Source of the DNA: Candidatus Poribacteria bacterium
Lineage (GTDB): Bacteria > Poribacteria > WGA-4E > WGA-3G
Reading direction: 5' to 3'
NCBI GenBank assembly: GCA_021295715.1
Contig: JAGWBV010000046.1
Span: 1-34,618, forward strand
DNA length: 34,618 nucleotides
Positions 3,517 through 29,487 of the stretch are shown piece by piece. Numbering within the stretch: position 1 is the stretch's first letter; every line of letters starts with the position of its first letter. The position numbers and the translations under genes are program-made. The notes below the pieces were generated by a model. It searched no databases and was not told the DNA's origin. It saw nothing but the letters and a program-made list of their open reading frames with translations.

Positions 3517-3693
3517 TAACCCAAGTTGCTACCTAATAGGTTTTGGGTGTTTAGACACAGATTTTTTAGGAAAAGAATCTCTTTACACCCCGTAGGGGTG
3601 GTATTGCTTCGCAGTGAGAATAGAAAATCGGACATTCAAGGAACTGCACCCCGTAGGGGTGCTATGTGAATGAGAAACTGGCAACTTGGGTTA
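3517..3693. repeat. MITE-like intergenic element, family A (complete copy)
   Basis: A 177-bp segment bounded by perfect 13-bp inverted repeats, TAACCCAAGTTGC (3517-3529) and GCAACTTGGGTTA (3681-3693). Inside are two exact copies of the palindrome CACCCCGTAGGGGTG (3586-3600 and 3647-3661), each a 6-bp stem with a GTA loop. No protein is encoded. Related pieces occur at 7014, 13493 and 16042. The right terminal repeat overlaps the stop codon of the peptidase gene. Confidence 0.75.
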
Positions 3694-11732: not shown

Positions 11733-11942
11733 TTAACGGGTAGATATGGGGGACTGAACTGCGAAATGGAATGCTGCGCGTATACCTTCCTCAGTCAAAC
11801 GGGGGTAGGCTTCAAGTAATTGCTCAATTGTCTCACCCGCTGCGATTTTTTCTAAGATTAATTCGACAGGAATGCGAGTACCTGCAATAACGGGTTTGCC
11901 CATCATGATTGACGGATTAGATTCGATCAGTTTTGTATCCAT
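11733..11942 (-). CDS. DUF433 antitoxin-like protein
   Basis: A 69-residue DUF433 protein: MDTKLIESNPSIMMGKPVIAGTRIPVELIL is the family start, followed by a helix-turn-helix-like ETIEQLLEAYPRLTEEGIRAAF. DUF433 proteins usually act as antitoxins next to a DUF5615 PIN-like toxin, but no such toxin is visible here, so it is a solitary copy or regulates the ligase immediately downstream. The ATG at 11942 is preferred because of AAAGGGATGAAG just upstream; the reading to 12020 would add a non-family extension that comes from repeat DNA. Confidence 0.8.
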   Translation of the reverse strand: MDTKLIESNPSIMMGKPVIAGTRIPVELILEKIAAGETIEQLLEAYPRLTEEGIRAAFHFAVQSPISTR

Positions 11943-11960
11943 GTCTTCATCCCTTTCATA

Positions 11961-12062
11961 CGTAGGTTGGGTTGAACGTCTCTGAGACATCAAATGTCCC
12001 GAACCAAATACCCGGCACATCTCAATCCCTTCATCTCTGTCAAAGACAAAGTGAAACCCAAC
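11961..12062. repeat. Half-copy of the family C repeat
   Basis: CGTAGGTTGGGTTGAACG (11961-11978) and GTGAAACCCAAC (12051-12062) are two modules also found in the nested element at 29135-29449 (29171 and 29263), in the same order and about 90 bases apart in both places, although the DNA between them differs. This suggests a shared ancestral element or two separate short palindromic units. Confidence 0.45.
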
Positions 12063-12069
12063 AACTACT

Positions 12070-12128
12070 GTGTGCTGACTGCTGACTGCTATGCCTCTGA
12101 CTGCTGACCGCTAGCTGCCTCTGCTGAT
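12070..12128. repeat. Imperfect CTGACTGCTGAC tandem repeat
   Basis: A low-complexity stretch built from degenerate copies of CTGACTGCTGAC/CTGCCT just after the radical SAM gene. It has no coding potential. Such slippage-prone DNA may vary in copy number between strains. Confidence 0.5.
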
Positions 12129-16227: not shown

Positions 16228-16330
16228 AGTCCTGTCAATGGTACCCACACGCTAAAGCGTGGGGCTTGTGCTTCCTCGCGACTGCGGTTTTCTCTTAGAG
16301 TCCACCGTCTGAGTGTCGCTCCACTTTAGG
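16228..16330 (-). ncRNA. Putative TnpB guide (omega) RNA scaffold and element right end
   Basis: In tnpB elements of the IS200/IS605 group the omega RNA spans the 3' end of tnpB and the element's right end. Immediately after tnpB here, a hairpin CCCACGC-TTTA-GCGTG (minus-strand sense, 16244-16264) lies in the expected place and resembles right-end hairpins of such elements. Exact RNA ends cannot be set from sequence alone. Confidence 0.4.
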
Positions 16331-17419
16331 CAGCCAAGCCTGCCCGTTTGATATTGATAGCAGCGTTGATGTCCCTGTCGTGGTGAGACCCACATTCGGG
16401 ACATGTCCACTGTCTATCTGAAAGAGAGAGGTCTTTATTAGGGTATCCACAATCAGAGCAAGGTTTTGTTGTCGGAGTCCATTGTCCGATTTTGACGAAG
16501 GTTTTACCGTGCTTTGCACACTTCTGCTCAAGTATCTGGAGAAACTGGTAGAAAGCGTGGTCGGAGACCTTGCGTCCCCAGAGGCGTTTCATACCGTCAA
16601 GGTTCAAAGTCTCAAAGCAAAGCGTATCAAACGCTGTGCAAAGTTCGTCAGCAAGTTTCCATTGCCAATCTTCTCTTTGTCGGGCAACTTTTCTGTGGTG
16701 TCTTGTCAAAGCACCACACGCACGATACCAATTGTTAGAACCTTTGACTTTGCGACTCAGTGCCTTGTTGAGAGATCGCAACGTTCTCAGGCATTGTTTG
16801 AAAAACTGCGGAGATGCTATCTTGTCGCCTGCGTCGCTCGTCAAGAATGTTGTGTTTCCGTAATCAAATCCTGCGCTCTGACCCGTCTTGGATTTGGGTT
16901 CGGCATCGTCAACAGTCTCACACGAAAAGCATATCCAATAATCACCGCACCTATCGCGTTTGAGTGTGATCGTTTTGATGACACCGCTAATTTCACGGTG
17001 TTTATGAAAAGAGAACCCTGTCTCTATAGAGTTGATTTTGATACGATTCCCTTCAAGTTCGTATCCAGCTTGTGTGAACGTCATGGAGTTGTATTTCTGA
17101 CGCGGTTTTATCTTCGGGAAACCGACTTTACGTGTGGTTTCACCCGCTTTACGCGCTTTTATGTTATCAAAAAAAGCGTCCCGAGATTTGCCGTAACGCA
17201 ACACAACGTCTTGAACAACTTGACTCGGTAAATCTTTCCAATGCGTTTAGCAACGTGGGCATTGAGGCGAGATATTGATATGTTTTTACCAAGCATGTGG
17301 TGATACCTACGATCGAGTTGCATGATATGAACGTGTATCTGCCACATATCATCAATCATATTACCAATCCTAACTGTGTTCGATTGGTTCTGGAGTTTGA
17401 ACTTGATCGCTTTTCTCAT
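16326..17419 (-). mobile_element. tnpB: TnpB of an IS200/IS605-type element, with one frameshift
   Basis: A tnpB gene of about 364 residues, read in two frames. The N-terminal part starts MRKAIKFKLQNQSNTVRIGN (17419). The rest (from about 17240 to 16326) runs on as WKDLPSQVVQDVVLRYG and carries the RuvC residues. Counted from the methionine at 17204, these are Asp114 (GFDYG), Glu198 (FETLNL) and Asp278 (DRDIN), with the zinc finger Cys249, Cys252, Cys268, Cys271. TnpB is an RNA-guided nuclease that favours retention of its element. The frame changes at about 17240 in CGCATTGGAAAG; one added T restores a normal protein. No tnpA is present, so it depends on a transposase in trans or is immobile. 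The left end in 17420-17607 is not identified. Confidence 0.85.
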
Positions 17420-28969: not shown

Positions 28970-29108
28970 GCGCGTGCTTCCTTTTTCTCTGAAGTATTGC
29001 CTTTCCTGAAAGAGTATACAGTGGATAAGAAAAATTTACAAAGTTTTTTCGTGCCTGCTGGAGAGGTAGGGGTGGGGAGTGAAGTAAGTCAGCTTGCTAT
29101 GGAGGGGA

Positions 29109-29134
29109 AGTTGGGTTTCGCTTTGCTCAACCCA
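29109..29134. repeat. Short palindromic unit next to the nested repeat
   Basis: GGGTT and AACCC flank TCGCTTTGCTC, giving a compact hairpin. Palindromes of this GTTGGGTTTCGC...TCAACCC type are widely scattered in some bacterial genomes. It abuts the larger nested element and shares its GTTGGGTTT module. Confidence 0.5.
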
Positions 29135-29449
29135 TAGGTGTCAATTTTAGAAGCAACCGCCTCTTACCGTCGTAGGTTGGGTAGAACGGATGCCACCAAA
29201 ACCGTAAAAAATCAGAGAAAAACGGAGATTTCTCCATATACGCTATATTCACCACATACTTAGTGAAACCCAACGCATTTGTTGTGAAGTTCCGGGGTTC
29301 TAAGGCTATGAAGTTGGGTTTCACTCGGTGTTGCGTGTATATGATGTCGTGTTGGATTTGACGTGTGTTTGGCAGACTGACATCCGCCTTCCGCAATGCC
29401 GTTCTACCCAACCTACGGACACCCCACGGAAACCTTAAATTGACACCTA
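29135..29449. repeat. Triple-nested inverted repeat, family C
   Basis: Three perfect inverted repeats are nested: outer TAGGTGTCAATTT (29135-29147) with AAATTGACACCTA (29437-29449); middle CGTAGGTTGGGTAGAACGG (29171-29189) with its complement (29399-29417); inner AGTGAAACCCAAC (29262-29274) with GTTGGGTTTCACT (29313-29325). The 315-bp block occupies most of the 518-base gap 28970-29487, which otherwise holds no recognisable gene. It could be a composite of inserted miniature elements or a large folded RNA. A weak 94-residue reading on the minus strand inside it is not supported. Confidence 0.75.
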
Positions 29450-29487
29450 CCTTGGATTGAGGAAATTAGTTATGTGCACAGATGCCA

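Follow-up and report, generated by a model that had tools for sequence, protein, structure and literature searches.

Nested inverted repeats in a Poribacteria intergenic region as a probable REPIN-like dimer carried between IS4-family ends

What could place three perfect inverted repeats, one inside another, in a single gap between two genes? The question arises at positions 29135-29449 of the window, which here means the whole 34,618-nucleotide stretch of Candidatus Poribacteria DNA that was analysed. An earlier note had described nested perfect pairs of 13, 19 and 13 bp over these 315 bp as exceeding chance, and had offered two explanations, miniature elements inserted into one another or a large structured RNA. 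The gap separates a class II dehydroquinase gene from a GFO/IDH/MocA oxidoreductase gene, both on the minus strand.

Three nested pairs, two kinds of boundary

An inverted-repeat scan of the window recovered all three pairs: an outermost pair at 29135-29150/29434-29449 (16 nt, 94% identity, the outermost 13 perfect), a 19-nt pair at 29171-29189/29399-29417 (100% identity), and an innermost pair at 29245-29274/29313-29342 (30 nt, 77%) that is perfect over 29262-29274/29313-29325. To assess the odds, we counted, across the 34.6-kb window and in 30 first-order Markov sequences, perfect 13-mer inverted repeats whose arms start no more than 320 bp from each other. The window held 10 such start pairs, 9 of them from the three nested repeats (the tenth is at 3517/3681), while the Markov sequences held a mean of 0.1 (maximum 1) and no 19-mer pair. 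The scan and this control confirmed that the nest lies far beyond chance.

A search with positions 29100-29480 gave 23 matches in the own genome and found matches in 26 of 40 genomes when extended to relatives, the own genome counted among them. The aligned copies showed two kinds of boundary by eye: an outer one, TAGGTGTCAATTT...AAATTGACACCTA (29135-29449), and an inner one, GTAG...CTAC (29172-29416), which occurs with or without the sequence outside it. Each end was then searched separately genome-wide, as had been proposed, and many copies of the outer end or of the inner (REP) end were found without the other. Far from being found only here, the outer end occurs 34, 57, 55 and 60 times in the own genome (G000) and in the relatives G010, G005 and G018 (reversed controls, at most 1 per genome), and the GTAG motif of the REP end 53, 91, 46 and 87 times (reversed controls, 0). 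The parts of the window copy are as follows.

29110..29134, minus strand: compact REP-like hairpin GTTGGGTTTCGCTTTGCTCAACCCA, adjoining the outer left end (hairpin read by eye)
29135..29150, plus strand: left end of the IS4-type miniature element, TAGGTGTCAATTTTAG; its first 13 bases match the end of the intact element
29172..29274, plus strand: first long-loop GTAG REP, 103 nt (5' arm 29172-29189, 3' arm 29262-29274)
29275..29312, no strand: 38-nt linker between both REPs (from the sequence and the dimer alignment)
29313..29416, minus strand: second long-loop GTAG REP, 104 nt, facing the first (from the sequence, unit anatomy and alignment)
29434..29449, minus strand: right end of the IS4-type miniature element, CTTAAATTGACACCTA (from the inverted-repeat scan and end-motif search)

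The proposal of nested miniature elements thus held in its nesting and not in its number: there are two elements rather than three, the 19-bp and inner 13-bp pairs being the stem strands of two REPs. Three separate insertions were ruled out by the anatomy of the REP units.

Outer ends of an IS4-like element

G018 has five places where outer ends face each other at a distance of 1465 bp; in the own genome, contig C38 has such a pair at 1423 bp. Two full-length copies read for genes, one from G018 and one from the own genome (L077, L082), encode transposases of 442 and 454 aa; both match PF01609 as well as the IS4 model NF033592, with scores of 199 and 200.5 bits against a cut-off of 115. We identify the outer pair from these matches as the ends of an IS4-family insertion sequence, with full-length copies carrying a DDE transposase in the own genome and in a relative. 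The YREK motif is incomplete in both transposases, reading V-x2-R-x3-E-x6-K with V in place of Y, so "IS4-like" is the safer name. Outer ends also lie at bases 44-66 of the own-genome contigs C23, C74, C121 and C132, which suggests that the IS4-like element may have broken the assembly and may be undercounted.

The sample for flanking repeats comprised 40 distinct outer-bounded elements, many of which had been selected because they resemble the window. CA precedes and TG follows the end motif in 35 of these, and direct repeats flank 19 (20 bp long in 13 elements and 19 bp in 6; 15 are perfect), against a mean of 2.5 and a maximum of 8 in a shuffled-partner control. A stricter count, in which the ends were read in another way, found 16 of 39, with a shuffled mean of 1.7 and a maximum of 7. 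By the former test the other 21 elements, the window copy included, showed no duplication. At 19-20 bp, the duplications are longer than the 7-13 bp listed for IS4 subgroups in Table 1 of PMC2266710. By eye, the duplicated sites are REP hairpins of the GTGCGGTT...AACCGCAC kind in 15 of 19 cases; the other four are not such hairpins, so this target rule is not strict. A short GTAGGTKCGG REP family surrounds a second RAYT (122 bits, NF047646) in L062 and several of the loci L146-L158, and hairpins of the GTAGGTKCGG type are the usual landing sites of the IS4-like element. The outer pattern alone retrieved loci with 17 elements; the GTAGGTTGGG REP was absent from all 17, and 7 of them contained the second REP family present in these genomes.

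In the window copy, the left outer end has the CA before it that is seen in the 35 elements with CA and TG on both sides; the usual TG after the right outer end is absent, and the duplication test found no direct repeat of the left flank after the right end. The compact hairpin on the left (29110-29134) is what the target rule would predict, and a hairpin of the same kind stands at the corresponding place in G040 and G008 (by eye); it is probably the target site, present as the left copy of a duplication. The same flank in G043 reads as an altered outer end, then the hairpin, then TACCTTAG, from which we infer that the right duplication of the window copy may have been lost by a small deletion between two CACCTA copies. 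We inspected the aroQ-oxidoreductase gap by eye in 10 relatives: G013, G043, G040, G008 and G010 have other REP-like hairpins or remnants, G004 has a short remnant, and G007, G001, G009 and G018 have neither hairpin nor remnant. None of these 10 gaps offered a clean empty site for the window insertion. Elsewhere in the window, positions 16326-17204 encode a 292-aa TnpB-type protein with OrfB_IS605 and Cas12f1-like TNB domains.

A dimer of long-loop REPs, and RAYT genes in relatives

GTAG stands at the start of both 19-bp arms, and the two units that these arms open are closed by the inner 13-bp arms. We therefore read the middle and inner pairs as the stem strands of two facing GTAG-type REPs, that is, as a REPIN-like dimer at 29172-29416. 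The loci collected contained 58 distinct facing dimers. The own genome has nine exact inverted pairs; 35 of its 53 motif matches lie outside such pairs, and single half units are common. For example, the second REP half and the linker occur without the first REP on contig C111 of the own genome (92% identity over query 175-319). The window itself contains a single long-loop GTAG half unit of 101 nt at 11962-12062, where it overlaps the beginning of a minus-strand DUF433 gene (11733-12020); the closing arm of this half unit is 8 bases, and a repeat scan of 11900-12120 with a 12-bp minimum found no inverted pair there.

Among 144 distinct closed REP units, 141 were 94-105 nt long and three were 31 nt, a count that excludes motif matches without a closing arm in reach (e.g., L031, L104, L106, L107, L110 and L115). 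A wider limit gave 151 units: 144 of 94-105 nt (mean 102.2, standard deviation 1.6), three of 31, one of 53 and three of 147-156. Standard REPs are units of 20-40 bp with a short loop; given their length of 94-105 nt, we class the present units as a long-loop variant. In each unit, a 7-bp stem is followed by a conserved GA/AG mismatch, two more pairs and then a ~74-nt loop. Loop length varies far less than loop sequence: of 72 loop columns, only 4 are at least 80% identical. At a 70% identity threshold most loops do form two large clusters (60 and 45 loops), and 20% of loop pairs score above the 99th percentile for shuffled pairs; clustering at identity 0.60 stays within the shuffled range and carries no meaning.

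The dimer might fold as two hairpins or as one long nested form. Beyond the GA/AG mismatch, A-T and G-C pairs substitute for one another within units (93 A-T and 31 G-C, against 4 A-C, 2 G-T and 11 other); because the units are related, the Fisher value of 3e-23 for within-unit pairing is not a true probability. The same position across dimer halves is unmatched (A/A in 37, A/G in 20 and A/C in 1 of 58), which favours two hairpins. The neighbouring position agrees between the two REPs of a dimer in 46 of 58, as a single long hairpin would want. In an alignment of 33 dimers, which left out nine non-redundant dimers for weak similarity or unsure orientation, the arms are nearly invariant, and each competing structure has one pair with double changes (4 cells under the two-hairpin fold, 8 under the nested one).

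A close RAYT (at least 74% identity) was found in 9 of 38 genomes of the genus (Candidatus Poribacteria), and the RAYT of this clade scores 208 bits against NF047646 (cut-off 80). In the own genome, whose assembly is 96% complete, no close RAYT but only a distant protein of 288 aa was found; the nearest protein there reaches a score of 69, below the cut-off of 80. Long-loop REPs lie beside the RAYT gene in all six loci inspected in relatives, and in G021 they form in part a tandem array with a spacing of 113-114 bp. Ten Poribacteria RAYTs of the clade, from named records of which several are the same as the relatives' genomes, divide into six with long units, two of these also with a compact unit, and four with units of 29-33 nt. 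At 43 other RAYT loci, most had compact units or none, the exceptions being L285 (104 nt), L252 (106-107 nt) and L244, L251, L259, L265, L274 and L275 (55-92 nt). On the RAYT tree the long-loop label needs one change, on a weak branch (59/41; 62% of 200 bootstrap trees). We take the long loop to have arisen within this RAYT clade by growth from a compact REP.

Two of the RAYT loci deserve separate mention. L252, from an unclassified bacterium, has facing GTAG units of 106 and 107 nt with the stem GATGGGG at 3592 and 3893, near a RAYT, and is possibly an independent long-loop REP dimer. L067 contains a 323-codon reading frame (946-1914) with a repeated peptide (MRGCKPRQR...) that runs into a RAYT; this frame is probably REP arrays read as protein.

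Competing explanations, nesting and known systems

A large RNA between two same-strand genes, its nested helices kept for RNA function, would suit the location between two minus-strand genes, the near-invariance of the arms across 33 dimers and the strong folding of both strands. The nested stretch does fold better than all 100 dinucleotide shuffles on either strand (z -5.6 and -7.6); the arms alone would produce such scores, and in the dimer alignment they are too invariant for covariation to decide. The loops show hardly any predicted pairing: outside the arms, the alignment-fold consensus gives only 2 pairs, both in one loop. There was no Rfam match at the gathering threshold, promoter-like and terminator-like sites were at chance level, and the copies are dispersed, with differing neighbours, lone half units and target duplications. 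We consider the RNA explanation highly improbable. It is also improbable, though somewhat less so, that the inner dimer is the miniature element of a DDE transposon of its own, with GTAG...CTAC as terminal inverted repeats rather than a REP dimer. The nearly perfect ends of 18-19 bp in the 33 aligned dimers would fit such a transposon, as would one 1413-bp stretch of G018 that has these ends and holds IS3-family reading frames. However, these frames are two fragments below the model cut-off, met a single time, and look as if they had been inserted into a dimer. Four dimers without outer ends (L053, L083, L108 and L112) show no target duplication by eye, and neither the many matches outside exact inverted pairs nor the position of units next to RAYT genes fits terminal repeats. 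With this single 1413-bp stretch to its credit, the IS3 family was rejected as owner of the inner ends.

We consider it likely that the 315-bp stretch is a compound: IS4-family ends moved in trans, with a REPIN-like dimer as cargo, nested once long ago and spread by IS4-type transposition. The left junctions (outer end to GTAG) and the right junctions (CTAC to outer end) are alike in the own genome and in relatives (by eye), and the left distance is mostly 30-40 bp; together these point to one nesting event. The nesting thus looks like one old event, with the compound spreading afterwards. Duplications of 19-20 bp surround 11 of 20 nested elements, indicating that at those sites the compound moved as one unit. 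Under this explanation, the IS4-family transposase would act in trans on the outer ends, making staggered cuts of ~20 bp, often around a REP hairpin, which would leave the hairpin duplicated; the target site of the window copy would follow the same rule. The REPs of the dimer would have spread as single strands by means of the RAYT carried in close relatives. Nesting would have happened once, before these species split, and the compound would then have multiplied by IS4-type transposition, most visibly in G010.

Of the 31 dimers in G010, 18 are bounded by outer ends on both sides and another 10 on one side. Nesting is rarer in G001 (6 of 30, from all pairs among the first 100 of 159 matches), G007 (3 of 22, of 24 pairs), G000 (2 of 9) and G018 (1 of 17). 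The contrast between G010, without a close RAYT, and G001, with one (Fisher p 0.004), had suggested nesting as a substitute for a lost RAYT; this idea was dropped given G018, also without a close RAYT (1 of 17), and G007 with one (3 of 22).

Overall, the locus is known mobile DNA, two kinds nested, in which two variants look unusual. One is a REP loop that is long yet almost constant in length; the other is an IS4-like element that duplicates 19-20 bp of its target, often centred on a hairpin. Neither variant turned up in the open-access literature searched. REPs are thought to depend on RAYT reading the GTAG, the stem irregularities and the loop, and a loop several-fold longer, with compact cousins in the same RAYT clade, amounts to a natural experiment in RAYT recognition. 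REPs would gain a second means of multiplying from a transposase whose insertion duplicates a REP hairpin. A tentative idea that we think may well be wrong joins the two variants: a Poribacteria REP loop may have grown to ~74 nt and kept its length while its sequence drifted, so that RAYT or strand geometry would measure length, while an IS4-like element duplicating two helical turns would land on REP hairpins and carry REP dimers. If true, each IS4-like insertion would add a REP hairpin, and REP numbers would be driven by two unrelated transposases.

Among known systems, the IS4 family as described in PMC2266710 resembles the outer element in transposase score, CAT-type ends (as in IS231 and ISH8) and size (~1.4-1.5 kb); the differences from the subgroups in its Table 1 are the length of the duplications and the V for Y in YREK. 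The same source reports long but variable repeats for IS1634 and IS1549 (IS1634 family). ISPpu9 (PMC8450116) is another element, likened to this one by its insertion into REPs. The TnpAREP/REP recognition work (PMC8266576) reported that REP activity in E. coli requires the GTAG and a mismatch in the stem; the sequences here keep both, whereas the loop is long and unconserved. REPINs (PMC3116915) share the two inverted REPs with a spacer, a proposed replicative unit, and the tie to RAYT; the present dimer spans ~245 bp, against ~71 bp between the outer invariant parts in a GI doublet, a difference explained by the ~102-nt length of each REP. The GTAG REP families and REPtrons of PMC3733652 share the GTAG tag, the 7-bp stem, facing dimers and units beside RAYT genes, with loops of 2-20 bp in its Table 1 against ~74 nt here. 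That source also reports REP dimers inside longer palindromes in A. variabilis and H. neapolitanus; in the Poribacteria locus, the surrounding palindrome is identified as IS4-family ends.
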